A DNA stretch of 64,000 nt, taken from Herbidospora galbida. GTDB taxonomy: Bacteria > Actinomycetota > Actinomycetes > Streptosporangiales > Streptosporangiaceae. The stretch is from positions 1-64,000 of the forward strand of contig NZ_SZQA01000010.1 in NCBI RefSeq assembly GCF_005233835.1, read 5' to 3'. The translations under genes and the position numbers were made by a program. Shown here in pieces: positions 36,656 to 62,557 of this stretch. Each line of letters opens with the position of its first letter. Position 1 is the first letter of the stretch. The notes under the pieces are model-generated. The model was not told where the DNA came from and searched no databases. It was given only the letters and a program-made list of their open reading frames with translations.

Positions 36656-37795
36656 CTACTTCTTGACGATGCTGCCCGACCAGTTATTGGCCGCGGCCTT
36701 GTAGACGTCGTACGTCTCGCCGTCGAAGTAGGGCGAGGTGATCTTGTCGATGCGGTCGTTGCCGTTGGAGTCGGCGAAGGCGCTCGTCACGCCGTTGACG
36801 TAGCCGAGGCGGCGGGCGTTGCTGTACTTCAGCAGCCACGGGCCGCCGTCGGCGCCCGGCGTCATCGAGCAGGTGATCGCGATCTGCTCCTCGATCTTGA
36901 GCCCCGCGTCGGTGACCTCACGGTTCGGCTTGCCGTAGCACCACTTCGGGGTGACCCCGGTGAACGCCTTGTTGCCGTCGGGGTGCCGGGCCGCGGGGTA
37001 GCCGAAGGCGTAGACCGCGCCGGCGCCGACCTTCTGGTTGTAGGCCAGGCCCTGGCCGCCGACGTTGTCGCCGAGGCGGCCGGCGTCCTTGACGGTGAGG
37101 ATCCACCACTTGCCCTTGTCACGCCACTTGAGGCCGCCGTGGGCCTTGTACTGCTTCTCGGAGACGGCCCTGGTGGCCTCGAACTTGACGCCGTTGTAGA
37201 CCGTGACGAAGGCGTAGTCGCGGTCGTAGTCCTCGTAGACGTCGAAGTCGTAGTGGGTGAAGCCCTGCTTGGCGACGTACACGCCCCAGGGGGCCTTGCC
37301 CTGGTAGTAGCCGGGGACGAAGATCCACTGGTCGAGCATGTGGTCGTTGTCGTCGGTGTCGAAGACGCAGTGCCCCGCGGTGGCGACCAGGTTCTTGTAC
37401 TTGGCCTGGATCGAGGTGGCCGAGCACCAGTGGGTTTTTCCGTTCTTGCGGAAGAAGACCTTGCCCAGCGTCTTGGGGATGTTGATGTTCTTCGAGGTGC
37501 CGGCCTGGCCGCCCGGACCGGTCGGGGAGACGGTGCCCGCCTTGCCGTCGGCCGACGGGCCGCCCTTGGAGGACAGCTTGGCCACCTTGGCGACCGTCTC
37601 GGCGTCGGGGCCCCACTGGGTGGCGGCCTTGAGCGCCTTGCTGTTGCTGCGGAACCAGAAGCCCGCGATGTTGTCGGCGTCTGCCACGGAGACCGTGGGT
37701 CCGTCGGCGGGCGAGGCGTTCGCCGGTAACGCCACTAGAACGGCGGATCCAGCTATGCCGGCGGTCACGAGACCCAGGCGTGCGCGCGTGTCCAC
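36656..37795 (-). CDS. Array copy 1: trypsin-like protein, catalytic Ser replaced by Asp
   Basis: 379 residues, GTG start behind GGAGG. Signal peptide to about residue 28. His142 (TAGHC) and Asp193 (DRDYAFV) of the triad remain, but the GxSGGP motif reads GADGGP, giving Asp316 in place of Ser. The oxyanion glycines and both disulfide pairs (Cys124-Cys143, Cys286-Cys309) are kept, so the fold should be intact and the change looks like a specific loss of the nucleophile. The prodomain is the most divergent of the left group. Ca-like loop 'DSNGNDRID' near 342. CRP-like site 85 nt upstream. Confidence 0.92.
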   Translation of the reverse strand: MDTRARLGLVTAGIAGSAVLVALPANASPADGPTVSVADADNIAGFWFRSNSKALKAATQWGPDAETVAKVAKLSSKGGPSADGKAGTVSPTGPGGQAGTSKNINIPKTLGKVFFRKNGKTHWCSATSIQAKYKNLVATAGHCVFDTDDNDHMLDQWIFVPGYYQGKAPWGVYVAKQGFTHYDFDVYEDYDRDYAFVTVYNGVKFEATRAVSEKQYKAHGGLKWRDKGKWWILTVKDAGRLGDNVGGQGLAYNQKVGAGAVYAFGYPAARHPDGNKAFTGVTPKWCYGKPNREVTDAGLKIEEQIAITCSMTPGADGGPWLLKYSNARRLGYVNGVTSAFADSNGNDRIDKITSPYFDGETYDVYKAAANNWSGSIVKK

Positions 37796-37879
37796 GTGAG
37801 CCCTCCTTTTCCTCCCGTTGCGGATTTGATCTAGCAGGTGACTAACCGTGAGACCGAAAACAAACGGGAGGAGAAGGAA

Positions 37880-37895
37880 TGTGACCTAAGTCACA
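37880..37895 (-). promoter_or_regulatory. CRP-like palindrome upstream of array copy 1
   Basis: TGTGA-CCTAAG-TCACA: perfect TGTGA/TCACA arms with a 6-nt spacer, 85 nt before the start of copy 1. Confidence 0.75.
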
Positions 37896-37922
37896 TAGTG
37901 ACTTACGGCAGATTCAGGAGCG

Positions 37923-39008
37923 CTACTTAACTTCGGTGAGACCGAGCGTGCCGTCCTTCTTGACGATCGAGCCCGACCAGAGCGGGGCCGCGGTCTTGTA
38001 GACCGCGTAGGTCTCGCCGTCGAAGTAGGGCGAGGTGATCAGGTCGCTGCGGTTGTTGCCGTCGGTGTCGCCGCCGAGGCTGCTCACGCCGTTCAGGTAG
38101 CCCTTGCGGGCGGTGCTGCTGTACTTGATGATCCACGGGCCGCCGGAGGCGCCGCCGGTCAGCGAGCACCGCAGAGCCAGGTGCTCCTCGGCCTTCACGC
38201 TCTTCTCAGCCACGGGGTAGACCGGCTTGCCGTAGCACCACTTCATGGTCGAGCCGGTGTAGGTGTAGTCGCCGTCGGGGTGGGCGGCGGTCGGGTAGCC
38301 GAATACGAAGACGTTCTGGCCGACCTTCTGGTTGTACGCGAAGCCCAGCCCGCCGACGTTGTCGCCCAGGCGGCCGACGTCCTTCCACTTGCCCTCCGAC
38401 CACGTGATGCCGTTGTAGACGGTCACGAAGGCGAAGTCGCGGTCGATGTCCTCGTAGACGCTGAAGTCGTAGTGGGTGTAGGCGGTCTTGCCGACGTACA
38501 CGCCCCACGGAGTCTTGCCCTGGTAGTAGCCCGGGATGAACACCCAGTGGCCGACGACCGAGGCGTTGCTCTCCAGGTCGTAGGCGCAGTGCCCGGCGGT
38601 CGCCACGAGGTTCTTGTACGCCGACTGGATCGACGACGCCGAACACGAGTAGAGGGAGTCGCCGAGCGTGAAGAACACGCGGCCGGCGCTCTTCGGCAGG
38701 TTGACGTTCTTGGTCGTCGTCGTGGGCTTGGCCTCGTCGCCGATGGCGGGCACCACGCCCGGCTTGCCGTCGGCGGCGGGGCCGCCGGTGGAGACGTGCT
38801 TGGGGACGCGGGCGTGCTCCAGGCCGTAGGGGGCGGCGGCCTTGAGGTTCTTGCCGCCGTCGGCGGTCCAGAACTCCAGGGTGTCGGCGGCCGCGGCGGG
38901 CGTCGCCAGCTTCGCCGAGGTGCCCAGCTTGGGGGCCGCGTTCGCCGGGACCGCTAAGGAGGCGGCCACGAGGCCGGCCACGCCGACGGGAAGGAGGATG
39001 CGCTTCAC
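37923..39008 (-). CDS. Array copy 2: secreted trypsin-like serine protease, triad intact
   Basis: 361 residues from GTG 39008 (the frame is open upstream, but signal peptide and AAGGAG support this start). Triad complete: His140, Asp191, Ser288 in GASGGP. Disulfide cysteines 122-141 and 258-281 present. Signal peptide cut near Ala24/25. Its loop after the Asp strand is short (about 12 residues against about 50 in copies 3-9). C-terminal extension 'KKDGTLGLTEVK' is unique in the array. Likely the active secreted protease of the left group; specificity unknown. Its leader resembles that of copies 3-7, but no CRP-like site is present. Confidence 0.92.
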   Translation of the reverse strand: MKRILLPVGVAGLVAASLAVPANAAPKLGTSAKLATPAAAADTLEFWTADGGKNLKAAAPYGLEHARVPKHVSTGGPAADGKPGVVPAIGDEAKPTTTTKNVNLPKSAGRVFFTLGDSLYSCSASSIQSAYKNLVATAGHCAYDLESNASVVGHWVFIPGYYQGKTPWGVYVGKTAYTHYDFSVYEDIDRDFAFVTVYNGITWSEGKWKDVGRLGDNVGGLGFAYNQKVGQNVFVFGYPTAAHPDGDYTYTGSTMKWCYGKPVYPVAEKSVKAEEHLALRCSLTGGASGGPWIIKYSSTARKGYLNGVSSLGGDTDGNNRSDLITSPYFDGETYAVYKTAAPLWSGSIVKKDGTLGLTEVK

Positions 39009-39122
39009 AGGGGGTTCGCTCCTTGCGATGGGCGTGAGACGCCTCTTGCGTCCCATGCGCCAGAAAGGGATAACCAGAAACTTACATGACTCTGGCAACT
39101 CAGCTAAAGAACACATAAAAAA

Positions 39123-39153
39123 GGAAAAGCCCGGCTGGATGCCGGGCTTTTCC
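39123..39153 (-). terminator. Terminator after array copy 3
   Basis: 13-bp perfect stem (39123-39135 with 39141-39153), 5-nt loop, flanked by A and T tracts; it follows copy 3 on the minus strand. Confidence 0.85.
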
Positions 39154-39173
39154 ACTGCCGTCAAGCGGATCGA

Positions 39174-40385
39174 CTAGGCGATCGAGCCGGTCCACAGGTT
39201 CGCGGCGGCCTTGTAGACACCGTAGGTCTCACCGTCGAAGTAGGACGAGAGCGAGGTGTCGATGCGCTTGTTGCCGTCGGAGTCGGAGACGCCGATGGTC
39301 ACGCCGTTCAGGTAGCCGAGACGGCGGGTGTTCTTGTACTGCGCCAGCCACGCCGAGCCCAGCGAGCCCTGGCCGGTGAAGGACGACTTGACGCCCAGCA
39401 GCTCCTCGCCCTTGATGGCCGAGGCCTTGGCGGCGAAGGTCTTGCCGTAGCTCCACTTGAGGGTCTTGCCGCTGTAGGCGGCGTTGCCGTCCGGGTGCGA
39501 GCCGCTCGGGTAGCCGAAGACGAAGACGCTCGAGCCGACCTTCTGGTTGTACGCGAAGCCCTGGCCGCCGACGTTGTCACCGAGGCGACCGGCGTCCTTG
39601 AACTTCCACACGAAGTACTTCGTGACGTCCTTGCCGTCGACCTTCTCGGTCTTCTTCCGGGTGAGGAAGCCGCCACCGTTCTTCTGGTACGTGTTGTACT
39701 CGGCCTCGGTGATCTCGGCGGGCGCACCCTGGCCGAGCGAGATGCCGTTGTAGACGTTGACGAACGCGTAGTTGCGGTCGCCGTCCTCGTACACGTCGAA
39801 GTCGTAGTGGGTGAAGGCCTGCTTGCCGACGTACACGCCCCACGGGGTCTTGCCCTGGTAGTAACCCGGGACGAACACCCAGTAGTTCATGGTCGCCGAG
39901 TTGGTCTCGGTGTCGTAGACGCAGCTGCCGGCCGTGGCGACCAGGTTGCGGTAGGCCGACTGGACCGAGGTGGCGGTGCACCAGCGGGGGTTGACGGCCA
40001 CGACGCGCCCGGTGGCCGGGTCCTTCTTGACGCCGTCGGCGAAGAACACCTTGCCCGTGGTCTTGGGCAGGTTGATGTTCTTGGACGTGCTGGTGGTCTT
40101 CTTCTCGTCACCGATGGCGGGGACGATGCCCGGCTTGGTGTCGGCGGTGGGGCCGCCGGTCGAGACGTGCTTCGCCGGGACCGTGGTCTCGACGTTGTAC
40201 GGCTGCGCGTTGATCAGGTTCGCGGCGCCTTCCGTCAGCCAGAGGGCGGCGATGTTCTTGGCCGCGATGCCCGTCGTCGCCAGGGGGTCGGAGGCGACGT
40301 CACCGGCGGCGGAGGCCGGCTGGGTGACGAGAGCGGAGGCCAGCAGACCGGCCGCCACACCACCGAGGGCGAGAGTGCGCTTCAT
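39174..40385 (-). CDS. Array copy 3: pseudoprotease, all three catalytic residues lost
   Basis: 403 residues, ATG with GGAG upstream, signal peptide ending ASA-AG near 27. Triad positions read Ser154 (TAGSC), Asn205 (DRNYAFV) and Leu342 (GSLGSAW), so it cannot be a serine protease by this mechanism. The first disulfide remains (Cys136-Cys155); the second pair has become Ser312 and Ser334. The loop after the Asn strand is long (about 213-262), Lys-rich and unlike those of its neighbours. Ca-like loop 'DSDGNKRID' kept. Probably secreted, with a binding rather than catalytic role (inference). Confidence 0.91.
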   Translation of the reverse strand: MKRTLALGGVAAGLLASALVTQPASAAGDVASDPLATTGIAAKNIAALWLTEGAANLINAQPYNVETTVPAKHVSTGGPTADTKPGIVPAIGDEKKTTSTSKNINLPKTTGKVFFADGVKKDPATGRVVAVNPRWCTATSVQSAYRNLVATAGSCVYDTETNSATMNYWVFVPGYYQGKTPWGVYVGKQAFTHYDFDVYEDGDRNYAFVNVYNGISLGQGAPAEITEAEYNTYQKNGGGFLTRKKTEKVDGKDVTKYFVWKFKDAGRLGDNVGGQGFAYNQKVGSSVFVFGYPSGSHPDGNAAYSGKTLKWSYGKTFAAKASAIKGEELLGVKSSFTGQGSLGSAWLAQYKNTRRLGYLNGVTIGVSDSDGNKRIDTSLSSYFDGETYGVYKAAANLWTGSIA

Positions 40386-40588
40386 GGGGGAACTCCTCTT
40401 GGTCTGTACGTGGGCCGCCTCTTGCGTCCCATGCGTCAGTAAAGGGGCAGTCCGGAACTTACATGCCTGTTCGTCACACGCGGTAGCGAATCTGGGGCGC
40501 CCGAAACCACCCAGGTTCCCGTGACATTTCCGTGATCTGTCAGACCCGAGGTCAGAGGTGGAGTCGGGTTGTTATCAACAGGTGATGA

Positions 40589-40604
40589 TGTGATGTAAAT
40601 CACA
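40589..40604 (-). promoter_or_regulatory. CRP-like palindrome upstream of array copy 3
   Basis: TGTGA-TGTAAA-TCACA, perfect arms, about 204 nt before the copy 3 start. The inner bases (ATGTAAAT) also occur upstream of copy 6. Confidence 0.75.
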
Positions 40605-40671
40605 TAAGGTCGATGGCACCGATTCGGGGGCCCGTGCGTCAAAGGGAACTTCGTTGGAACGGGCAAACGAA

Positions 40672-40695
40672 AAGGCCCGGCCGGAGCCGGGCCTT
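40672..40695 (-). terminator. Terminator after array copy 4
   Basis: AAGGCCCGGC (40672-40681) pairs with 40686-40695, loop CGGA, 15 nt after the copy 4 stop. Confidence 0.82.
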
Positions 40696-40709
40696 CCGTT
40701 GGAGAACCA

Positions 40710-41915
40710 CTACGCGATCGAACCGCTCCACAGGTTCGCGGCGGCCTTGTAGACGCCGTAGGCCTCGCCGTCGAAGTACGGCGACACCGAGGTGTCATAG
40801 CGCTTGTTGCCGTCGGTGTCCGAAACACCGATGGTCACGCCGTTCAGGTAGCCCAGACGACGGGCGCTCTTGTACTGCGCGATCCACGAGGAGCCCAGGG
40901 CGCCCTCGCCGGTGAAGGAGGACTTGACGCCCAGCAGCTCCTCGGCCTTGATGGCGGAAGCCTTGGCGGCGAAGGTCTTGCCGTAGCTCCACTTGAGGGT
41001 CTTGCCGGTGAAGGCCTGGTTCCCGTCGGGGTGCTGGCCACTCGGGTAGCCGAACACGTAGACGCTCTGGCCGACCTTCTGGTTGTAGGCGAAGCCCTGG
41101 CCACCGACGTTGTCGCCGAGGCGACCGGCGTCGATGAACTTCCAGACGTAGAACTTGCCCTTGTACTTGAAGTGGAACTTGTAGGTCTTGGCGACCGCCT
41201 CGGTCACCTCGGTCCAGGCGCCCAGGTCGGCGTCGGACTTGATGTCGGCGAAGCCGCCCGAGGGCAGCTTCAGGCCGTTGTACACGGTGACGAACGCGTA
41301 GTTGCGGTCGCCGTCCTCGTACACGTCGTAGTCGTAGTGGGTGAAGGCCTGCTTGCCGACGTAGATGCCCCACGGGGTCTTGCCCTGGTAGTAACCCGGG
41401 ACGAACACCCAGTTCTCGAGGGTGGCCTTGTTGGTCTCCGTGTTGTAGACACAGCTGCCGGCGGTGGCGACCAGGTTGCGGTAGTTCGACTGCACCGAGG
41501 TGGCCGAGCACCAGTGCGGGTTCACGGCGACCCAGCGGCGCGACTTGTGGTCCCAGTCGAAGCCGTCGGAGAAGAACACCTTGCCCGTGGTCTTGGGCAG
41601 GTTGACGTTCTTCGAGGTGCTGGTGGTCTTCTTCTCGTCACCGATGGCGGGGACGACACCCGGCTTGGTGTCAGCGGTGGGGCCGCCGGTCGAGACGTGC
41701 TTGGAGACGACCTGGGTCTCCACGTCGTAGGGGGTCGCGTTGACCAGGTTGGCGGCGTTCTCCGCCAGCCACAGGGCCGCGATGTTCTTGGCCGCGATGC
41801 CGGTCGAGGCCAGCGGGGTGCTGGCGACGTCGCCGGCGGCGTTGGCCGGCTGGGTGACGAGAGCGGAGGCCAGCAGGCCGGCCGCCACGCCACCGAGGGC
41901 GAGGGTGCGCTTCAT
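40710..41915 (-). CDS. Array copy 4: pseudoprotease, all three catalytic residues lost
   Basis: 401 residues from MKRTLALGG (ATG 41915; the frame is open 45 nt further, but the signal peptide and GGAG set the start). Triad positions are Ser154, Asn205 and Leu340 (GALGSSW). Second-disulfide cysteines are Ser (WSYG, KSSFT). The insert before the catalytic domain ('FDWDHKSRRWVAVNP') and the loop after the Asn strand ('SGGFADIKSDADLGAWTEV') are private to this copy, whereas flanking scaffold is nearly identical to copies 3 and 5. Ca-like loop 'DTDGNKRYD'. Confidence 0.91.
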   Translation of the reverse strand: MKRTLALGGVAAGLLASALVTQPANAAGDVASTPLASTGIAAKNIAALWLAENAANLVNATPYDVETQVVSKHVSTGGPTADTKPGVVPAIGDEKKTTSTSKNVNLPKTTGKVFFSDGFDWDHKSRRWVAVNPHWCSATSVQSNYRNLVATAGSCVYNTETNKATLENWVFVPGYYQGKTPWGIYVGKQAFTHYDYDVYEDGDRNYAFVTVYNGLKLPSGGFADIKSDADLGAWTEVTEAVAKTYKFHFKYKGKFYVWKFIDAGRLGDNVGGQGFAYNQKVGQSVYVFGYPSGQHPDGNQAFTGKTLKWSYGKTFAAKASAIKAEELLGVKSSFTGEGALGSSWIAQYKSARRLGYLNGVTIGVSDTDGNKRYDTSVSPYFDGEAYGVYKAAANLWSGSIA

Positions 41916-42181
41916 GAGGGAACTCCTTGGTCTGTACGTGGGCCGCGTCCTGCGTCCCATACGTCAGGAAAGGGATGTTCCGGAGGTTACCCCCGCGATC
42001 TTTTGCGCCTGAAGTGGCGTTTGCGCACTTCAGAGGCCCGTGATGTGGCCGTGATCTGAGTGACTCACAGTCGGGTCACGAGTCAGCGACTCCCGGACGC
42101 GGAAAGTCCACGCTCACAGGGGTGCCGGGCTTGACCGTGATGGTTAACCGATGGTTAAGAAGTCGGACATAGATCCACAAA

Positions 42182-42197
42182 TGTGACACAAATCACA
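42182..42197 (-). promoter_or_regulatory. CRP-like palindrome upstream of array copy 4
   Basis: TGTGA-CACAAA-TCACA, perfect arms, followed by GATCAATGGAACC, a tail also seen beside the sites of copies 6 and 7. Confidence 0.75.
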
Positions 42198-42222
42198 CGC
42201 GATCAATGGAACCGAAACGCGT

Positions 42223-42250
42223 GAGGCCCGGCCGTCACCGGCCGGGCCTC
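42223..42250 (-). terminator. Terminator after array copy 5
   Basis: GAGGCCCGGCC pairs with the complementary arm ending at 42250 (11 bp, 6-nt loop), 12 nt after the copy 5 stop. Confidence 0.8.
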
Positions 42251-42261
42251 AGGTCGGGCAC

Positions 42262-43488
42262 TTAGGCGATCGAGCCGGTCCACAGGTTCGCGGCGGCCTT
42301 GTAGACGCCGTAGGTCTCGCCGTCGAAGTACGGCGACACCGAGGTGTCGAAGCGCTTGTTCTTGTCGGTGTCGGAGACGCCGATGGTCACGCCGTTCAGG
42401 TAGCCCAGACGACGGGCGCTCTTGTACTGGGAGATCCAGGCGGAGCCCAGCGAGCCCTCACCCGTGAACGACGACTTGACTCCGATCAGCTCCTCGGCCT
42501 TGATGGCCGAGGCGCCGGCGGCGAAGGTCTTGCCGTAGCTCCACTTGAGGGTCTTGCCGGTGTAGGCCTGGTTGCCGTCGAGGTGCTTCCCGCTCGGGTA
42601 GCCGAAGACATAGACGCTCTGGCCGACCTTCTGGTTGTAGGCGATGCCCTGGCCGCCGACGTTGTCGCCGAGACGGCCCGCGTCCTTGAACTTCCAGACG
42701 TAGTAGTGCTTCTTGCCGTCCTTCCACTCCGTGCCCGCGAGCAGGAGACGGCGGCTGCCCGCCCAGTAGGCCTTGTACTCGGCCTGGGTGACCTCGGTCT
42801 TGCTGACGTCGGCCGACTGCTCCGGGCCGTTCAGCGTGAGGCCGTTGTACACGGTGACGAACGCGTAGTTGCGGTCGCCGTCCTCGTAGACGTCGTAGTC
42901 GTAGTGGGTGAAGGCCTGCTTGCCGACGTACACGCCCCACGGGGTCTTGCCCTGGTAGTAGCCCGGGACGAACACCCAGTGGTTCATGGTCGCCTTGTTG
43001 GACTCGGTGTCGTAGACACAGCTGCCGGCGGTGGCGACCAGGTTGCGGTAGTTCGACTGCACCGAGGTGGCCGAGCACCAGTGCGGGTTCTTCGCGACGA
43101 CCTTGAAGTCGTCCATGGTGCCCTGGATCTCGAAGCCGTCGGCGAAGAAGACCTTGCCCGTGGTCTTGGGCAGGTTGACGTTCTTCGAGGTGCTGGTGGT
43201 CTTCTTCTCGTCACCGATGGCGGGGACGACGCCCGGCTTGGTGTCGGCGGTGGGGCCGCCGGTCGAGACGTGCTTGCTGGCGACCTGGGTCTCCACGTCG
43301 TAAGGCGTGGCGTTGACCAGGTTGGCGGCGTTCTCGGTCAGCCAGAAGGCCGCGATGTTCTTGGCCTGGATGCCGGTGGCGGCGAGCGGGGTGCTGGCGA
43401 CGTCGCCGGCCGCGGAGGCCGGCTGGGTGACGAGGGCGGAGGCGAGCAGGCCGGCCGCCACACCGCCGAGGGCGAGGGTGCGCTTCAT
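42262..43488 (-). CDS. Array copy 5: pseudoprotease, all three catalytic residues lost
   Basis: 408 residues, the longest copy, from MKRTLALGG (ATG 43488, GGAG upstream). Triad positions: Ser156, Asn207, Leu347. Second-disulfide Cys pair replaced by Ser. Private segments are 'FEIQGTMDDFKVVAKNP' before the first Cys and a loop of about 55 residues (216-269) containing 'SRRLLLAGTEWKDGKKHYY'. Ca-like loop is 'DTDKNKRFD' with Gly replaced by Lys. This copy lacks a CRP-like palindrome: only 172 nt separate it from copy 6, so its promoter differs or it is read with its neighbour. Confidence 0.91.
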   Translation of the reverse strand: MKRTLALGGVAAGLLASALVTQPASAAGDVASTPLAATGIQAKNIAAFWLTENAANLVNATPYDVETQVASKHVSTGGPTADTKPGVVPAIGDEKKTTSTSKNVNLPKTTGKVFFADGFEIQGTMDDFKVVAKNPHWCSATSVQSNYRNLVATAGSCVYDTESNKATMNHWVFVPGYYQGKTPWGVYVGKQAFTHYDYDVYEDGDRNYAFVTVYNGLTLNGPEQSADVSKTEVTQAEYKAYWAGSRRLLLAGTEWKDGKKHYYVWKFKDAGRLGDNVGGQGIAYNQKVGQSVYVFGYPSGKHLDGNQAYTGKTLKWSYGKTFAAGASAIKAEELIGVKSSFTGEGSLGSAWISQYKSARRLGYLNGVTIGVSDTDKNKRFDTSVSPYFDGETYGVYKAAANLWTGSIA

Positions 43489-43613
43489 GGGGGAACTCCT
43501 TGGTCTGTACGTGGGCGCGCTTGCGTCCATGCGTCAGGAAAGGGATGTTCCGGAGGTTACTGACGGGACCTTGTGGGACTGCAGCGATCAAGAAACCACT
43601 CAGAGAACGACAA

Positions 43614-43641
43614 AAGGCCCGGTCGTTAACGACCGGGCCTT
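43614..43641 (-). terminator. Terminator after array copy 6
   Basis: Fully palindromic 28-nt hairpin (AAGGCCCGGTCGTT and its complement), 19 nt after the copy 6 stop. Confidence 0.84.
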
Positions 43642-43660
43642 CCGTCAGCTGGTGACCGCT

Positions 43661-44833
43661 TTAGGCGATCGAGCCGCTCCACAGGTTCGCAGCAGCCTTG
43701 TAGACGCCGAAGGTCTCACCGTCGAAGTACGGGGAAACCGAGGTGTCGTAACGGTTGTTCTTGTCGGTGTCGGAGACGCCGATCGTCACACCGTTCAGGT
43801 AGCCAAGGCGACGAGCGCTCTTGTACTGCGAGATCCAGGCGGAGCCCAGCGAGCCCTCACCGGTGAAGGAGGACTTCACGCCGATGATCTCCTCGGCCTT
43901 GATGTCCGACGCCTTGGCGGCGAACGTCTTGCCGTAGGTCCACTTGAGGGTGTGACCGGAGTAAGCGTGGTTCCCGTCCGGGTGCGAGCCGCTCGGGTAG
44001 CCGAACACGTAGACGTTCTGGCCGACCTTCTGGTTGTAGGCGAGGCCCTGGCCCCCGACGTTGTCGCCCAGGCGACCAGCGTCGTTCCACTTCCAGATGT
44101 AGTACTTGCCGCCGTCGATGAAGCGGATGTCGTACTGCAGCCACAGTTCCTTCGAGACTTCGACGAGACCGCCGAGGTCCTTCAGGGTCTTGACGTCCTT
44201 GAGGCCGCCGTGGGGCAGCTTCAGGCCGTTGTACACGGTGACGAACGCGTAGTTGCGGTCGCCGTCCTCGTACACGTCGAAGTCGTAGTGCGTGAACGCC
44301 TGCTTGCCGACGTAGATGCCCCACGGGGTCTTGCCCTGGTAGTAACCGGGGACGAAGACCCACTTGTCCAGGGTCGCCTTGTTGTTCACGACGTCGTAGA
44401 CGCAGTGACCGGCGGTCGCGACAAGGTTCTTGTACGCGGCCTGGACCGAGGTGGCGGTGCACCAGTGCGACTTCTTGTCAGCGCCGATGAAGAACACCTT
44501 GCCCGTGGTCTTGGGCAGGTTGACGTTCTTCGAGGTGCTGGTGGTCTTCTTCTCGTCACCGATGGCGGGAACGATCCCCGGCTTGGTGTCGGCGGTCGGG
44601 CCACCGGTCGAGACGTGCTTCCCGACGACCTGGGTCTCCACGTCGTAGGGGGTCGCGCCCTTCAGCTGGGCCATGTTCTCGGCCCACCAGAAGGCGGCGA
44701 TGTTCTTGGCCGCGATGCCAGTGTTGGCCAGCGGGGTGCTGACGACGTCACCGGCGGCGGCAGCCGGCTGGGTGACGAGAGCGGAGGCCAGCAGGCCCGC
44801 CGCAATGCCACCGAGGGCGAGAGTGCGCTTCAT
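43661..44833 (-). CDS. Array copy 6: pseudoprotease, His kept, Asp and Ser lost
   Basis: 390 residues. His142 is intact (TAGHC), but Asp has become Asn193 and Ser has become Leu329. The second disulfide is lost (WTYG instead of WCYG; KSSFT). Shares prodomain features with copy 7 (WWAENMAQLKGATPYD), so the two are recent duplicates, but their loops differ after 'LPHGGLKDV' ('KTLKDLGGLVEVSKEL' here). Ca-like loop 'DTDKNNRYD'. ATG 44833 with GGAG. Own terminator and an upstream CRP-like site about 276 nt before the start. Confidence 0.91.
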   Translation of the reverse strand: MKRTLALGGIAAGLLASALVTQPAAAAGDVVSTPLANTGIAAKNIAAFWWAENMAQLKGATPYDVETQVVGKHVSTGGPTADTKPGIVPAIGDEKKTTSTSKNVNLPKTTGKVFFIGADKKSHWCTATSVQAAYKNLVATAGHCVYDVVNNKATLDKWVFVPGYYQGKTPWGIYVGKQAFTHYDFDVYEDGDRNYAFVTVYNGLKLPHGGLKDVKTLKDLGGLVEVSKELWLQYDIRFIDGGKYYIWKWNDAGRLGDNVGGQGLAYNQKVGQNVYVFGYPSGSHPDGNHAYSGHTLKWTYGKTFAAKASDIKAEEIIGVKSSFTGEGSLGSAWISQYKSARRLGYLNGVTIGVSDTDKNNRYDTSVSPYFDGETFGVYKAAANLWSGSIA

Positions 44834-45108
44834 GGGGGAACTCCTTGGTCTGTACGTGGGCCGCGTCTTGCGTCCCATGCGTCAGGAAAGGGATGAGTGG
44901 ACCTTACAGCCGATCTTGGGTGTGTCCGTAGCGATACCTGGGGCTCGTTGACGCGCTTGAGGCGTCGAGATATTTCCGTTATCCGACTGACTGGAAGTTG
45001 ACAGGCTTGTAAGGATTGCCTCTGGTGTAGAAGCGCAGTTCGGATGCCCTTGATCCGCCCTCTGTGGGGGCGGAAGAAAACCACAAGGTTCTGTGAAGTT
45101 CCTGGGAA

Positions 45109-45124
45109 TGTGATGTAAATCACT
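45109..45124 (-). promoter_or_regulatory. CRP-like palindrome upstream of array copy 6
   Basis: TGTGA-TGTAAA-TCACT, one mismatch in the outer base, followed by GATCAATGGAACC as at copies 4 and 7. Confidence 0.72.
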
Positions 45125-45186
45125 CGTGATCAATGGAACCGATCGGCGAGTTAACCCAACCTTTGCTGGAACGTGCAAAAACGACA

Positions 45187-45215
45187 AAAGACCCGATCGT
45201 AACGATCGGGTCTTT
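45187..45215 (-). terminator. Terminator after array copy 7
   Basis: AAAGACCCGATCGT (45187-45200) pairs with 45202-45215; a T run follows on the minus strand. Confidence 0.84.
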
Positions 45216-45231
45216 CGTCGAGCTGGACCGC

Positions 45232-46407
45232 TTAGGCGATCGAGCCGCTCCACAGGTTCGCAGCAGCCTTGTAGACGCCGAAGGTCTCACCGTCGAAGTA
45301 CGGGGAAACCGAGGTGTCGTAACGGTTGTTCTTGTCGGTGTCGGAGACGCCGATCGTCACACCGTTCAGGTAGCCCAGACGACGGGCGCTCTTGTACTGC
45401 GACAGCCACGCGGAGCCCAGCGAGCCCTCACCGGTGAAGGAGGACTTGACGCCGATGATCTCCTCGGCCTTGATGTCCGAAGCCTTGGCCGCGAACGTCT
45501 TGCCGTAGCTCCACTTGAGGGTGTGGCCGGTGTAGGCGTGGTTGCCGTCCGGGTGCTTGCCGCTCGGGTAGCCGAAGACGTAGACGCTCTGGCCGATCTT
45601 CTGGTTGTACGCGAGGCCCTGGCCACCGACGTTGTCGCCGAGGCGACCGGCGTCGAAGAACTTCCAGACGTACCACTTGCCGTCCTTGAACTTCTTCAGC
45701 CAGTTCTCGTACTGGTGGGCGAGCTCCGGCGACACCTGGACCCAGCTGCCGATGTTCTCCGGCGTGACGTCCTTGAGGCCGCCGTGGGGCAGCTTCAGGC
45801 CGTTGTACACGGTGACGAACGCGTAGTTGCGGTCGCCGTCCTCGTACACGTCGAAGTCGTAGTGGGTGAAGGCCTGCTTGCCGACGTAGATGCCCCACGG
45901 GGTCTTGCCCTGGTAGTAACCCGGGATGAAGACCCACTTGTCCAGGGTCGCCTTGTTGCCCACGACGTCGTAGACGCAGTGACCGGCGGTCGCGACGAGG
46001 TTCTTGTACGCGGCCTGGACGGAGGTGGCGGTGCACCAGTGCGACTTGCCGTCAGCGCCGCGGAAGAACACCTTGCCCGTGGTCTTGGGCAGGTTGACGT
46101 TCTTCGAGACGCTGGTGACCTTCTTCTCGTCACCGATGGCGGGAACGATCCCCGGCTTGGTGTCGGCGGTCGGGCCACCGGTCGAGACGTGCTTCCCGAC
46201 GACCTGGGTCTCCACGTCGTAGGGGGTCGCGCCCTTCAGCTGGGCCATGTTCTCGGCCCACCAGAAGCCCGCGATGTTCTTCGCCGCGATGCCCGTGTTG
46301 GCCAGCGGGGAGCTGACGACGTCGCCGGCGGCGGCGGCCGGCTGGGTGACGAGAGCGGTGGCCAGCAGGCCCGCCGCCACGCCACCGAGGGCGAGAGTGC
46401 GCTTCAT
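45232..46407 (-). CDS. Array copy 7: pseudoprotease, His kept, Asp and Ser lost
   Basis: 391 residues, ATG 46407 with GGAG. Triad positions: His142, Asn193, Leu330. Second-disulfide cysteines replaced (WSYG, KSSFT). Closest to copy 6 across the whole length except for the loop after the Asn strand, where 'TPENIGSWVQVSPELAHQY' and 'NWLKKFKDG' are private. That contrast of near-identical scaffold with divergent loop is the clearest in the array. Ca-like loop 'DTDKNNRYD'. Two CRP-like sites lie upstream. Confidence 0.91.
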   Translation of the reverse strand: MKRTLALGGVAAGLLATALVTQPAAAAGDVVSSPLANTGIAAKNIAGFWWAENMAQLKGATPYDVETQVVGKHVSTGGPTADTKPGIVPAIGDEKKVTSVSKNVNLPKTTGKVFFRGADGKSHWCTATSVQAAYKNLVATAGHCVYDVVGNKATLDKWVFIPGYYQGKTPWGIYVGKQAFTHYDFDVYEDGDRNYAFVTVYNGLKLPHGGLKDVTPENIGSWVQVSPELAHQYENWLKKFKDGKWYVWKFFDAGRLGDNVGGQGLAYNQKIGQSVYVFGYPSGKHPDGNHAYTGHTLKWSYGKTFAAKASDIKAEEIIGVKSSFTGEGSLGSAWLSQYKSARRLGYLNGVTIGVSDTDKNNRYDTSVSPYFDGETFGVYKAAANLWSGSIA

Positions 46408-46550
46408 GGGGGAACTCCTTGGTCTGTACGTGGGCCGCAGCTGCGTCCCATGCGTCAGGAAAGGGATGGCTGGACCTTACAGCGGCGATCTTCTGTGGCT
46501 GAAGAGCATTCCGAGGTTCGGTTGTAGCCCTGAGTGACGGATGCTTCTCC

Positions 46551-46564
46551 GTGATCCAAGTCAC
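46551..46564 (-). promoter_or_regulatory. Second CRP-like site upstream of array copy 7
   Basis: GTGA-TCCAAG-TCAC has the CRP core arms and the same 6-nt spacing, but lacks the outer T/A. It lies closer to the copy 7 start than the main site. Confidence 0.5.
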
Positions 46565-46681
46565 TTTCTGTTGACAGACATGTCAATGAGAACCGAGGAG
46601 CGGAAGCGCAGCTCTGCTGCCCGATGCGTGTGACGGGCGGGTGGCGAAGGGAACCACACCTTCCTGAGAAGATCATGGGAA

Positions 46682-46697
46682 TGTGATGCAAATCACA
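46682..46697 (-). promoter_or_regulatory. CRP-like palindrome upstream of array copy 7
   Basis: TGTGA-TGCAAA-TCACA, perfect arms, about 275 nt before the copy 7 start. Confidence 0.75.
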
Positions 46698-46728
46698 CGA
46701 GATCAATGGAACCCGTCGCGAACGGCAA

Positions 46729-46753
46729 AGGCCCGGCCTTATCGGCCGGGCCT
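46729..46753 (-). terminator. Terminator after array copy 8
   Basis: AGGCCCGGCC (46729-46738) pairs with 46744-46753, 5-nt loop. Confidence 0.8.
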
Positions 46754-46785
46754 GCACAGGTTCTTACTTGACTGATCGACCTTGA

Positions 46786-47985
46786 CTAGGCGATCGAGCC
46801 GCTCCAGAGGTTGGCGGCCGCCTTGTAGACGCCGTAGGTCTCGCCGTCGAAGTAGGCCGAGACGCTCGTGTCGATGCGCTTGTTGCCGTCGGTGTCGGAG
46901 ACGCCGCTCGTGAGACCGTTCAGGTAGCCGAGGCGGCGGGAGCTCTTGTACTGCGAGAGCCACGCCGAGCCCAGCGAGCCCTGGCCGGTGAACGACGACT
47001 TCACGCCGATCAGCTCTTCGGCCTTCACGGCCGACGCCTTGGCCTTGAACGTCTTGCCGTAGCTCCACTTGAGCGTGTGGCCGGTGTAGGCGTGGTTGCC
47101 GTCCGGGTGCGAGCCGCTCGGGTAGCCGAACACGTAGACGTTCTGGCCGACCTTCTGGTTGTAGGCCAGGCCCTGGCCGCCGACGTTGTCACCGAGGCGA
47201 CCGGCGTCGGTGAACCGGATCACGTAGTACTTGCCCTTGATCGGGCCGGGCGAGCGGATGGCCTTGCTGTAGGTCTCCCACTCGGCCTTGGAGACTTCCT
47301 TGGTGTTCTCGGTCCGCATCCACTTGGCGAACTCGCTGCCCTTGGCGGGCAGGCCCGACGCCGGCGCCTTGAGGCCGTTGTAGACGGTCACGAACGCGTA
47401 GTTGCGGTCGCCGTCCTCGTAGACGTCGAAGTCGTAGTGGGTGTAGGCGGTCTTGCCGACGTAGATGCCCCAGGGGGTCTTGCCCTGGTAGTAGCCCGGC
47501 ACGAAGACCCAGTAGTCGAGGGTGGCCTTATTGGTCACCGTGTCGTAGACGCAGCTGCCGGCGGTGGCGACCAGGTTCTTGTACTTCGACTGCAGCGAGG
47601 TGGCGGTGCACCAGTGGGGCTTGCCGTCGCCGCCGCGGAAGAACACCTTGCCGGTGGTGCGGGGGAGGTTGACGTTCTTCGAGGAGCCGCCGGACTTGGC
47701 CTCGTCGCCGATGGCGGGGACCGTTCCAGCCTTCCCGTCGGCCGCAGGGCCGCCGGTGGAGACGTGCTTGTTGACCTTGATGGTCGTCTCGGCGTTGTAG
47801 GGGGTCGAGCCGACCAGGTTCGCGTACTTGTTGGCGAACCAGTAGGCGACCACGTTCTTGGCCGCGAGCGACGTCTTGGCCAGGGAGTCGCTCGCCACGT
47901 CGCCGGCCGCCGAGGCGGGCTGGGTGACGAGGGCGGAGGCCAGCAGGCCGGCTGCCACACCGGAGAGGGCGAGGGTGCGCTTCAA
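46786..47985 (-). CDS. Array copy 8: pseudoprotease, all three catalytic residues lost
   Basis: 399 residues from TTG 47985 (LKRTLALSG), with GGAGAAG just upstream; no ATG fits the signal peptide, so TTG is the likely start. Triad positions: Ser144, Asn195, Leu338. Second disulfide lost. The prodomain 'STGGPAADGKAGTVPAIGDEA' is closer to copies 1, 2 and 9 than to 3-7, so it seems to be a separate loss event or a recombinant. The loop after the Asn strand is long (about 205-258) and basic ('KAIRSPGPIKGKYYV'). Ca-like loop 'DTDGNKRID'. Confidence 0.9.
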   Translation of the reverse strand: MKRTLALSGVAAGLLASALVTQPASAAGDVASDSLAKTSLAAKNVVAYWFANKYANLVGSTPYNAETTIKVNKHVSTGGPAADGKAGTVPAIGDEAKSGGSSKNVNLPRTTGKVFFRGGDGKPHWCTATSLQSKYKNLVATAGSCVYDTVTNKATLDYWVFVPGYYQGKTPWGIYVGKTAYTHYDFDVYEDGDRNYAFVTVYNGLKAPASGLPAKGSEFAKWMRTENTKEVSKAEWETYSKAIRSPGPIKGKYYVIRFTDAGRLGDNVGGQGLAYNQKVGQNVYVFGYPSGSHPDGNHAYTGHTLKWSYGKTFKAKASAVKAEELIGVKSSFTGQGSLGSAWLSQYKSSRRLGYLNGLTSGVSDTDGNKRIDTSVSAYFDGETYGVYKAAANLWSGSIA

Positions 47986-48134
47986 GGCTTCTCCATGCGT
48001 TGGTAAAGGGACCGTCAGGACGATATGCGGGATGTTCCGCGTGTCCAAAGCGACTTCACCGCGCCTTTGGGGCCGTTGTGCACCTATTGCCGCAGGTGGG
48101 AACTTGACTGGCGGCAGTCGGATCTTGGTTCAGA

Positions 48135-48150
48135 TGTGACCCGAATCACA
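48135..48150 (-). promoter_or_regulatory. CRP-like palindrome upstream of array copy 8
   Basis: TGTGA-CCCGAA-TCACA, perfect arms, about 150 nt before the copy 8 start. Confidence 0.75.
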
Positions 48151-48205
48151 TTTTTCCATGGCACCGAAATCCGGCTATGTACGTCTAATTCCTCTTGGCA
48201 TGAAA

Positions 48206-48233
48206 AAGGCCCGGCCGAGGACGGCCGGGCCTT
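48206..48233 (-). terminator. Terminator after array copy 9
   Basis: AAGGCCCGGCCG (48206-48217) pairs with 48222-48233, loop AGGA, 5 nt after the copy 9 stop. Confidence 0.84.
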
Positions 48234-48237
48234 CGTG

Positions 48238-49431
48238 TTAGGCGATCGAACCCGACCACAGGTTCGCCGCGTGCTTGTAGATGCCGTAGGTCTCGCCGTC
48301 GAAGTAGGGCGAGAGGCTGACGTCGATGCGGTCGTTGCCGTCGGTGTCGGAGACCGCGGCGGTGACGCCGTTCAGGTAACCCTTGCGGCTGGTGTTGCTG
48401 TACTTGTACATCCAGGCCGAGCCCGACGAGCCTTCGCCGGTGAAGCTGCACTTGACGCCGAGCAGCTCCTCCGCCTTGATGGCCGACGCCGAGGCCGGGA
48501 ACGTGGTCCCGTAGCACCACTTCTGGGTCTGGCCCGTGTAGGCGTGGTTGCCGTCGGGGTGTGACCCGCTCGGGTAGCCGAAGACGTAGTCCTTCACGTT
48601 CTTCTTCTGGTTGTACGCGAAGCCCTGGCCGCCCACGTTGTCACCCAGCCGGCCGGCGTCGACGAACTTCCAGATGTAGTACTTCGAGCCGATCTTCTTC
48701 GTGTACTTGGAGACGATCCACGGGTAGCTGCCGTAGGAGCGGTACTTGTCCCACTCGCTCTTGGAGACCTTCTTCCAGTCGCCGTCGAGCGGGCCGCCGT
48801 CGTGCGGGGCCTTCAGGCCGTTGTAGACGGTGACGAAGGCGTAGTTCCGGTCGAAGTCCTCGTAGACGTCGAAGTCGTAGTGGGTGAAGGCCTGCTTGCC
48901 GACGTAGATGCCGTAGGGGGTCTTGCCCTGGTAGTAGGCCGGGACGAACACCCAATACTTCATCGTGGCGGCGTTCGACTCGGTGTCGTAGACGCAGTGC
49001 CCGGCGGTGGCGACCAGGTTCTTGTACTTCGACTGGAGCGAGGTGGCGGTGCACCAGCGGGGGTTCTTGTCGGCGTCCAGGAAGAAGACCTTGCCGGTGG
49101 TGCGGGGCAGGTTGACGTTCTTGGACGTGGTGGAGCCCGCGCCGCCGATCGGCGCGACCAGGCCGGGCTTGCCGTCGGCCGAGGGGCCGCCCTTCGACAG
49201 GTGCTTGGCGACGACCTTGGTCTCGACGTCGTAGGGGGTGGCGGCGTTCAGGTTGGCCTTCGCCTGGCCGTACCAGAAGGCGACGACGTTCCAGGCGGCG
49301 ATGCCGCTGCCGGCCAGCGGGTCGGACGCCTCGTCGGGCGCGGCGCTGGCCGCGGACGGGACGGCCAGGGCCGCGCCGAGAAGGCCGGCGGTGGCGCCGA
49401 GGAGCGCGAGGTGCTTCGCTCGGGATCGCAT
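48238..49431 (-). CDS. Array copy 9: intermediate, His and Ser kept, Asp replaced by Asn
   Basis: 397 residues, ATG 49431 with GGAG. His146 and a Ser at the nucleophile position (Ser336, GSSGSAW) are present, but Asp is Asn197 and the GGP after Ser is GSA. Both disulfide pairs survive (Cys127-Cys147, Cys306-Cys328). It therefore sits between active copies and the Leu-type pseudoproteases: Asn at the Asp position usually cuts activity sharply. The loop after the Asn strand (about 208-256) is Tyr/Lys/Ser-rich. Its signal peptide differs from copies 3-8. No CRP-like site in the 90-nt gap to copy 10. Confidence 0.9.
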   Translation of the reverse strand: MRSRAKHLALLGATAGLLGAALAVPSAASAAPDEASDPLAGSGIAAWNVVAFWYGQAKANLNAATPYDVETKVVAKHLSKGGPSADGKPGLVAPIGGAGSTTSKNVNLPRTTGKVFFLDADKNPRWCTATSLQSKYKNLVATAGHCVYDTESNAATMKYWVFVPAYYQGKTPYGIYVGKQAFTHYDFDVYEDFDRNYAFVTVYNGLKAPHDGGPLDGDWKKVSKSEWDKYRSYGSYPWIVSKYTKKIGSKYYIWKFVDAGRLGDNVGGQGFAYNQKKNVKDYVFGYPSGSHPDGNHAYTGQTQKWCYGTTFPASASAIKAEELLGVKCSFTGEGSSGSAWMYKYSNTSRKGYLNGVTAAVSDTDGNDRIDVSLSPYFDGETYGIYKHAANLWSGSIA

Positions 49432-49521
49432 GGTGGTGCTCCTTCATTACAGAGGGTGTGCTGTGATGAAGGTAGGTTCCTGCGCTTTATCTCCGCTTTA
49501 TCGCCGGTTGCAGAGCGCTTA

Positions 49522-50631
49522 CTAGCTGGTCGCCTGCTTGGCGGCCTGCTGGTAGACCCGGGCGGTCACCGCGTTGAAATAGGGGGAGGACGCAGCGTCG
49601 AGCTTGCCGTCGGCGTTGATGTTCCACGTCAGGCTGGTCACGCCGTTGAGGAACCCGGTCTTCTTCACCGGATCCCAGCCGAGCACCCACGGGCCGCCGC
49701 TCGCGCCCGCTGTGAAGGGGCACGGGTTGAGCAGGACGCCGTTCTCCAGCAGGTAGGTGGGGGCCGTCGCGGCGGTGGCCCTGGTCGTGCCGGAACAGGA
49801 CCGGACGCTCTGGCCGTCGAAGGGGCGGGTGCCGTCGGGATGGGCGCCGGCCGGGTAGCCGAACACCGACACCGGGCGCGCGCGGCCCTTGGTCGAGGAG
49901 AACTGGAAGGCGCCGACCTTGTCTTCGAGTCGGCCGCCCTGCACCCGCTGGTCGCCCTTCCAGGTGAAGCCCTGGTAGACGGTCACGAACGCGTAGTCAC
50001 GGTCGTAGTCGCCCGCGCCCGAGAAGTCCTCGTGAAGGTAGAGCGTGTGGCCGACGTAGATGCCGGCGTCGGTGGAGCCGCCCGCGTAGGACGGGATGAA
50101 GACCCAGTTCTCCACGGGCTTGTTCTGGCCCAGCGACCAGCCGCAGTGGCCGGCCGTGGCGACCAGGTTGCGGTTCTTGGAGTGGACGACCGAACCGGAG
50201 CACCAGTACTCCTTGTCGCCCAGCTTGAAGAAGACCTTGCCGACCATCGGCTGCTGCGAGGGCGCGGCGGCGCCGGTCGCCGTCGTCGCGCTCTCGCCGG
50301 AGAGTTCCGCCATCGAGGGGGCCTGCCGCGCCGCGGTGGACGGCTTGGAGGCCGGGACATAGGTGCTGGCCTCCTTGAGCCGCGCGGGCGTCCAGTAGGA
50401 GGAGACCTTCTGCATGTCGCCGCCGGCCGCCGCGAGGGGGTAGGCCATCACGCCCTTGCCGAGATGCTTCTCCGCCGGCGGGGCGGCCATCTTGGCGGAG
50501 ACCTCCATCAGGGGCGCCGTGGGCGGGGCCGCGATGGCGGGCATGGAGGTCGGCGCCCAGATCGAGAGGAGCGCGGCGGCACCCAGCGCGGCGGCGGCGC
50601 CGCTCGCTGCAAGGGTGATCCGCCTGGTCAT
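49522..50631 (-). CDS. Array copy 10: secreted trypsin-like protease, triad intact, divergent
   Basis: 369 residues from ATG 50631 (MTRRITLAAS; GAGAGG upstream). Triad complete: His162, Asp212 (DRDYAFV), Ser311 (GASGGPW). The first Cys pair is present (Cys144-Cys163); the second is Cys279-Cys304 in a different context (VRSCSG, NPCPF). A long Ala/Pro-rich prodomain lacks the 'STGGP' block, and the variable loop is minimal. The Ca-like loop is weak ('NINADGKLD'). Probably a functional protease and an early branch. No terminator is visible before copy 9, so the two may be co-transcribed. Confidence 0.9.
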   Translation of the reverse strand: MTRRITLAASGAAAALGAAALLSIWAPTSMPAIAAPPTAPLMEVSAKMAAPPAEKHLGKGVMAYPLAAAGGDMQKVSSYWTPARLKEASTYVPASKPSTAARQAPSMAELSGESATTATGAAAPSQQPMVGKVFFKLGDKEYWCSGSVVHSKNRNLVATAGHCGWSLGQNKPVENWVFIPSYAGGSTDAGIYVGHTLYLHEDFSGAGDYDRDYAFVTVYQGFTWKGDQRVQGGRLEDKVGAFQFSSTKGRARPVSVFGYPAGAHPDGTRPFDGQSVRSCSGTTRATAATAPTYLLENGVLLNPCPFTAGASGGPWVLGWDPVKKTGFLNGVTSLTWNINADGKLDAASSPYFNAVTARVYQQAAKQATS

Positions 50632-50805
50632 GGGGGCCTCTCGGGGTTCTCGTGACGGAGGTATCGATCGTAAGGGGTGATTTTTCCAGATCACCAGTGA
50701 TCAGGCACAGGTTCTTGGCCGTCTCGTTATGAATTCGAGGGAACCGAACGGCCCTCTGGTCCGTCCGAGTAGATCGCGCCGAAGCTACGGCCCGCGTAAA
50801 AGGAA

Positions 50806-50838
50806 GCGCCCGGGAGACGAGGAACGTCTCCCGGGCGC
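50806..50838 (-). terminator. Terminator after array copy 11
   Basis: 14-bp perfect stem (50806-50819 with 50825-50838), 5-nt loop, in the 282-nt gap between copies 10 and 11. Confidence 0.85.
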
Positions 50839-50913
50839 GTGGTTCCATGGCCGTGTCTTTCGGGCGGATTCAGGGCGCGAGCCACGGCCGCCCTTCGGCC
50901 GTCCGCGTCTCGC

Positions 50914-52023: not shown

Positions 52024-52286
52024 CGAAGTCCTTTCCCTTGGGACGAATTGAGGGTGCGTCCCAAATACGTGGAAACAGCTCCGAACGTTAATGACGCGAT
52101 CACGGGTAACGCCGCAGATATAACGAGAGGGCGGGGTCAATTGGCCTTAACGTTATTCATGCACTGCTGTTATGAATTGCGTTTCCGCAGGTGATCCCTG
52201 GTTTGCCGATTCGGTTTACGCATTATTCGCGGCCGGTCTCGGTCCCTTTTGTCACTCTGGTAACAGAGATAGAGTAATGTTCTGCC

Positions 52287-62434: not shown

Positions 62435-62452
62435 AATGCACCTCGTCAGGTA

Positions 62453-62466
62453 TGGGAGCGCTCCCA
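62453..62466. promoter_or_regulatory. CebR/CelR operator at the cellulase gene
   Basis: The perfect 14-bp palindrome TGGGAGCGCTCCCA, identical to the operator of the LacI-family repressor CebR/CelR (relieved by cellobiose) in Streptomyces and Thermobifida. It lies 19 nt upstream of the proposed TTG start. Confidence 0.93.
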
Positions 62467-62557
62467 TGGCTCAGGTGCACCTGATGTTTCCAATGGGTTT
62501 CACCGAGGGTCAAGAATCGCAGGTCGGCGCAGGTGGGCGACCTGCCGCGCGTCCGGA

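Follow-up and report, generated by a model that had tools for sequence, protein, structure and literature searches.

A 64,000-nucleotide stretch of the genome (8.3 Mb) of the soil actinomycete Herbidospora galbida (contig NZ_SZQA01000010.1, positions 1 to 64,000; this whole stretch is the window below) carries an array of eleven genes for proteins of the chymotrypsin (S1) protease fold, all on the minus strand, at 36656–52140. Judged from sequence, the array consists of three proteases with an intact His-Asp-Ser triad (copies 2, 10, and 11), one borderline member (copy 9), and seven pseudoproteases (copies 1 and 3–8). The active sites of the seven are destroyed, the reading frames examined are strongly conserved, and, across related genera, a palindrome of cAMP receptor protein (CRP) type precedes most dead copies but few intact ones, a pattern that suggests a regulated set with a use other than cutting. 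We consider it reasonably likely that the array encodes, alongside active sister proteases, proteins that bind or regulate without cleaving and are themselves regulated together.

Triad states, fold, and purifying selection

An initial annotation of this DNA had given a triad state for each of the eleven copies, and alignment bears all of them out. Copy 1 (36656–37795) is H-D-D, with Ser changed to Asp; copy 2 (37923–39164) is H-D-S; copies 3 (39174–40385), 4 (40710–41960), and 5 (42262–43530) are S-N-L; copies 6 (43661–44878) and 7 (45232–46407) are H-N-L; copy 8 (46786–48048) is again S-N-L; copy 9 (48238–49431) is H-N-S; and copies 10 (49522–50694) and 11 (50914–52140) are H-D-S. Ser is absent from copies 1 and 3–8, Asp from copies 3–9, and His from copies 3–5 and 8; the full triad expected of a peptidase is found in copies 2, 10, and 11 only. 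The second Cys pair is replaced by Ser or Thr in copies 3–8 and retained in copies 1, 2, 9, 10, and 11.

In the alignment, and in a model of copy 8 predicted with confidence, the residues in question occupy the triad positions, as the annotation had supposed. The predicted models of copies 2 and 8 both have the two-barrel S1 chymotrypsin fold, and that of copy 2 has a predicted local distance difference test (pLDDT) value of 86.3 and a Foldseek template-modeling score on the target of 0.87 to 3wy8. In a Pfam scan of nine of the eleven copies, copies 2 (Trypsin_2 and Trypsin), 10, and 11 (both Trypsin) scored above the curated cut-off, copies 1 and 7 matched Trypsin_2 below it, and copies 3, 5, 8, and 9 matched no family; NCBIfam gave no match among the nine copies scanned. 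The Ser-less copies retain the pro-region and an LNGV stretch that we read as one wall of the cleft. Most window copies also have, in the C-terminal part, a calcium-loop-like DxDGNxRxD stretch (DTDGNKRID in copy 8), with no counterpart within the aligned part of 3wy8.

Selection was measured with a codon model (our own script) in ten ortholog groups, none of which includes window copy 5. Eight groups hold seven sequences, the copy 4 group four, and a further pseudoprotease group lacking a window copy (7b) five; the seven-sequence groups represent seven species each, except that the copy 6/7 group combines both window copies with five other species. The ratio of nonsynonymous to synonymous rates (ω) lies between 0.027 and 0.130, and ω = 1 is rejected in every group (likelihood-ratio test statistic (LRT) 126–486). 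The range is alike in pseudoprotease groups (copy 1, 0.027; copy 3, 0.067; copy 4, 0.070; copy 6/7, 0.097; copy 8, 0.054; 7b, 0.130) and in intact ones (copy 2, 0.068; copy 10, 0.082; copy 11, 0.064), with copy 9 at 0.028. Because active sites are destroyed while frames are this strongly conserved, the data support the selected non-catalytic role that the annotation had proposed. By homologous fold, lost essential residue, and retention by selection, copies 1 and 3–8 are classed as pseudoproteases on sequence grounds, the last of these marks being read from groups to which copy 5 does not belong.

The annotation had placed the array at 36656–49431, an interval that contains copies 1–9 but ends before copies 10 and 11. 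Stem-loops with T runs lie between copies at 39123–39153, 40674–40688, 45182–45220, and 48180–48240, and suggest separate transcription units. The start of copy 2 is probably set too far upstream, because its TTG-started open reading frame begins beside a stem-loop; the true start is probably near 39008–39056. That of copy 8 is probably 47985.

Serine loss across the family

The family extends well beyond the window. A search set of 61 loci and stretches of seven genomes yielded 422 near-full-length copies, of which 354 rows, from nine genera and one further family member, were kept after exclusion of identical copies, of copies truncated at an edge, and of seven Herbidospora loci that were duplicates. 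Their triad states are 142 HDS, 92 HDD, 31 HDL, 29 SNL, 17 HNL, 11 SDL, 8 HDI, 5 HDA, 4 HNS, 4 HNI, and rarer ones. Further arrays added 38 non-identical rows, for 392 in total, 238 of them Ser-less. The array is present in all seven Herbidospora genomes, and array types are kept in related genera; among 121 genomes from the order, 37 have matches to copy 8 at E <= 1e-60, every one of them within the same family group, with up to 24 matches at that threshold per genome (pieces of split genes counted apart).

The Ser slot does not drift. Of 390 readable copies, 152 have Ser there, 135 Leu or Ile, 93 Asp, and 10 Ala, Gly, or Asn, and a filled or locked site is therefore favored over decay. Columns conserved to at least 95% number 165 of 351 for the Leu/Ile clade, 93 for the Asp copies, and 43 for Ser copies with intact Cys pairs; these Ser copies, however, bring together several old paralogs, and the comparison with them is not like for like.

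The annotation had ordered the losses as Asp, then Ser, then His. The 392-row tree does not support this order, and on it Ser goes first: all eight inferred Ser losses begin from an intact His-Asp pair, and seven leave both residues intact. Losses of His or Asp number 16 on Ser-less versus 3 on Ser-bearing branches (p = 0.002) over about equal tree length (31.4 and 32.0). All of these counts come from parsimony on a FastTree tree that has weak nodes, and an earlier parsimony map of the 354 rows had placed implausible reversals (HDL to HDS, for example) on nodes of low support. At the tips, both His and Asp are kept in 171 of 238 Ser-less versus 147 of 152 Ser-bearing copies, and H-D-L and H-D-I copies of Microbispora and Planotetraspora fall in the same clade as copies 3–8. 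All 37 members of the Herbidospora Leu clade have Asn for Asp, and 25 lack His (24 SNL, 1 NNL); within Herbidospora, these sequences are compatible with Asp changing before His. The S-D-L copies of Acrocarpospora and Microtetraspora, with His changed and Asp kept, show the reverse.

Copy 9 belongs to a different clade and is not a forerunner of the H-N-L state. It is H-N-S in four of the seven Herbidospora species and H-D-S in the other three; for both of these reasons, its Asn is best seen as a separate change. Copy 1, with Asp in place of Ser, belongs to a second Ser-less clade present in several genera. From the tree, Ser was probably lost early, once to Leu or Ile (the clade of copies 3–8) and separately to Asp (the clade of copy 1), and the changes at Asp and His would follow. 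A single Leu/Ile clade is rejected with 66 rows (p 3.65e-05; 2.0e-05 when Microbispora rows at the copy 9 position are added) but no longer rejected once four rows are dropped (p 0.49 and 0.55): one that breaks off at the Ser column, two Ser-bearing copies on long branches, and an Asp copy likewise on a long branch. Because the outcome depends on these four rows, one Leu/Ile origin is allowed by the sequences rather than shown. The copy 2 clade groups with the Asp clade with a support of only 0.53.

Gene conversion among window copies 3–8 was considered and rejected, as in nine segments compared the closest copy is mostly from another species. The exception is the pro-region segment, where a window paralog is closer for copy 4 and ties for copies 3, 5, and 7, but not for copies 6 and 8; copy 5 has one further tie with a window paralog outside that segment.

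A second array type, with copies of 444–622 residues that are mostly H-D-I or H-D-L, occurs at loci L114, L116, L117, L118, L120, L121, and L122 (genomes G074, G015, G100, G022, G020, and G037).

The upstream palindrome and its candidate regulator

A perfect TGTGA-N6-TCACA palindrome was first seen on reading the upstream region of copy 3. The window contains five exact sites, all on the minus strand, before copies 1 (37880–37895), 3 (40589–40604), 4 (42182–42197), 7 (46682–46697), and 8 (48135–48150, past the stem-loop that trails copy 9). Of three sites with one mismatch, one stands before copy 6 (45109–45124, minus strand), and the others, at 28301 and 30885, lie apart from the family; sites with two mismatches show no excess over the whole window (18 versus 12.9 expected). 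Copies 2, 9, 10, and 11 have no such operator.

The same division is seen family-wide. With an operator defined as a site within 400 bp upstream with at most one mismatch, a criterion that 0.7% of shuffled upstream regions satisfy, operators precede 164 of the 206 copies without Ser versus 17 of the 145 with it (Fisher p 5e-39, uncorrected for relatedness) and, in Herbidospora arrays, 41 of 44 versus 0 of 28. Among rows fetched after the hypothesis had been formed, the counts are 28 of 32 versus 1 of 5 (p 0.005), in loci that are not fully independent because they were picked by matches to pseudoprotease copies and some come from close relatives of genomes already seen. By clade, operators precede 98 of 106 Leu/Ile and 67 of 89 Asp copies, and none in the clades of copies 11 (0/32), 10 (0/48), 9 (0/14), and 2 (0/21). 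The copy 1-position group of Microbispora, Microtetraspora, and others has none either (0/16); in this group (e.g. L035:18194, L040:11386, and L034:15715) the Ser slot holds Ser, Asp, Ala, or Gly.

The 66 loci around family members (1.19 Mb) contain 149 exact sites, 127 of them in front of Ser-less copies and 15 in front of Ser copies; duplicate rows account for 2 more, and 5 lie elsewhere. The whole genome has 16 exact sites, of which 7 precede genes of this family (control pattern, 0); the other nine lie near genes for a CAP-domain protein, a type-2 NADH dehydrogenase-like protein (two sites), a response regulator, a GCS2-like protein, and others, with some sites unassigned. The CAP-domain protein (L096:1954-2907), which has a signal-like start, is preceded by the operator variant TGTGATTTACGTCACA (site at G000 C2:162491) and is, from this site, a possible further regulon member. 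A weaker conserved stretch resembling GGTGCCAT or GGTTCCAT lies 9–14 bases upstream of the operator in an alignment of 182 copies. In the second array type, an exact or one-mismatch operator precedes most Ser-less copies; one kind of H-D-L copy (L116:8458, L117:6642, and L122:2449) and the Ser-bearing copies L114:12942 and L121:2619 are without one. Two solitary long paralogs, H-N-L and Q-N-I (L091 and L092; G000 C21:78541-80034 and C106:113156-114673), have an exact operator each.

The genome encodes three high-scoring Crp-type proteins, one of which (L106) is a full-length relative of Mycobacterium tuberculosis CRP (3d0s; E 1.9e-83). In the excerpted text of one report (PMC5449483), TGTGA-N6-TCACA is the site type of M. 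tuberculosis CRP and GlxR, and Streptomyces coelicolor Crp is listed as not binding it. Because of that listing, assignment of the palindrome to CRP depends on the likeness of L106. By sequence, the upstream site and the encoded CRP-type protein together define a putative regulon that resembles the actinobacterial CRP/GlxR regulons in both respects, although a pseudoprotease set is not mentioned as a target in the excerpts of PMC5449483 and PMC5327559.

Inserts, function, and related systems

Many copies have an insert after the Asp strand, with a median length, in the 270 of 354 rows where it was measured, of 19 residues in Ser-bearing rows (range 11–184), 55 in Leu, 165 in Ile, and 149 in Asp rows. 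The insert is not limited to dead copies, because copy 9 has one of 52 residues. In the copy 8 model it is folded, in blocks with pLDDT of 85–94. It differs among window paralogs and is conserved between species: in the insert-rich segment, DNA identity is 0.68–0.78 among window paralogs and 0.83–0.99 to the closest copy of another species. Its ω exceeds that of the rest clearly in the copy 1, 4, 6/7, and 7b groups (LRT over 40) and weakly in the copy 8 and copy 2 groups (LRT 4.3 and 5.1); it is not raised for copies 3, 9, 10, and 11. Pooled pairwise counts of 1.75 for copy 4 and 1.10 for copy 2 (nine codons) had hinted at positive selection and were overturned by codon maximum likelihood. The inserts look like paralog-specific surfaces rather than products of an arms race.

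In the mechanism that we propose, the copies would be exported, judging by eye from their signal-like N-termini and pro-region. The dead copies, each bearing its own folded insert, would bind targets without cutting and would be switched as a set by CRP, apart from the intact copies. Their S1 domains would act on the system in which copies 2, 10, and 11 work, most likely as binders that do not cleave and that compete with the active proteases encoded alongside, or regulate them; what they hold would be substrates, inhibitors, or those proteases. More speculatively, and in our estimate doubtful as a whole, this could be an extracellular recognition system of Streptosporangiaceae, in which many paralogs, built on one dead S1 scaffold but differing in their folded inserts, are jointly induced by cAMP-CRP independently of the intact sisters, respond to signals by sensing or sequestering them, and thereby control the sister proteases in germination or development.

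Several observations weigh against the proposal of a co-regulated, non-cleaving set. First, the operator is not strictly tied to Ser loss: it precedes 15 of 17 Ser-bearing copies at the copy 9 position in Microbispora and relatives, and it is missing from one Asp ortholog group (0/18) and from copy 5, a Ser-less copy that follows copy 6 after a short spacer. Second, two long-branch Ser-bearing copies are placed within the Leu/Ile clade. Third, no positive selection is seen in the inserts, as their codon maximum-likelihood ω is at most 0.45 in all ten groups. Finally, an independent-pairs test of operator against Ser loss had about one informative pair of 11 and gave no support; because this test is uninformative, the link is shown clade by clade rather than event by event, and operator and Ser loss are inherited together in a few clades, a clade-level association.

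It is possible, if somewhat unlikely, that the palindrome is an inherited promoter trait of an old duplicate lineage and unrelated to loss of catalysis, with Ser-less and operator-bearing labeling the same clades. Both the independent-pairs result and the operators before Ser-bearing copies of Microbispora and relatives favor such an account. It fits less well, however, with the operators carried by two separate Ser-less clades, Leu/Ile and Asp, when the copy 2 clade, which groups with the latter, has none.

Alternatively, the dead copies could lie outside any protease pathway, as proteins outside the cell that reuse a stable fold for structural or surface purposes in mycelium, spore, or sporangium. 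High conservation, high copy number, and the exact operator before a CAP-domain protein with a signal-like start would all suit such proteins. We nevertheless find this unlikely, as the dead copies still share tandem arrays with intact proteases, have lost neither pro-region nor LNGV stretch, and retain His and Asp in most Ser-less members. It is very unlikely that some copies still cut with another nucleophile, such as the Ser two residues past the lost one (GSLGS). That Ser has a frequency of 1.00 in Leu/Ile copies, where 107 of 116 Cys-intact Ser copies have Gly, and His and Asp persist in many genera; but copy 9-type copies carry it alongside the catalytic Ser, V8-type proteases also carry a second Ser, and the Herbidospora Leu clade has lost Asp throughout and His in two-thirds of its members. 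Relaxed selection on dead duplicates heading for loss, which the variation of triad residues among copies and species might suggest, is extremely improbable, being already contradicted by ω of 0.03–0.13, with ω = 1 rejected in every tested group, by conserved motifs and operators, and by the array in all seven Herbidospora genomes.

Returning to the proposal of non-cleaving partners of active proteases, parallels exist in other systems. The closest S1 proteases are Anisep (3wy8), AL20 (3cp7), and the Bacillus intermedius glutamyl endopeptidase (1p3c), from which copies 1 and 3–8 differ in lacking the catalytic Ser, copies 3–8 also in lacking Asp and the second Cys pair, and copies 3–5 and 8 in lacking His; the long insert after the Asp strand is a further difference. 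S1-fold pseudoproteases are best known from animals, where serine protease homologs, haptoglobin, and azurocidin have lost triad residues and act non-catalytically; those animal proteins are not known to have a counterpart of the bacterial tandem array whose dead copies carry an operator. The Csp proteins are subtilisin-like, and CspC and CspA work with an active sister protease. In Clostridioides difficile, according to excerpts of two reports, CspC and CspA are bacterial pseudoproteases that regulate spore germination in response to signals (PMC6636752, PMC12880746). The likeness lies in soluble bacterial pseudoproteases with a regulatory role, which is a feature of the Csp proteins and proposed here; the Herbidospora copies differ in their chymotrypsin fold, as modeled for copies 2 and 8, in their large number, and in the CRP-type site in front of them. 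A large S1 pseudoprotease family of bacteria whose dead copies carry an operator appears new, in that neither it nor any bacterial S1 pseudoprotease array was among the matches listed in the open-access literature, subscription papers falling outside that coverage.

The family also preserves living intermediates: copies with Ser and an insert, copies with Ser, an operator, and a lost Cys pair, copies that have lost Ser and kept His-Asp and copies with all three residues changed. With intact sisters adjacent and a promoter marker, the transition from enzyme to non-enzyme is directly testable, and the operator pattern predicts a dedicated regulon. Elsewhere in the window, at 59897–62467, is an ordinary GH9 cellulase with CBM2 and CBM4_9 domains.

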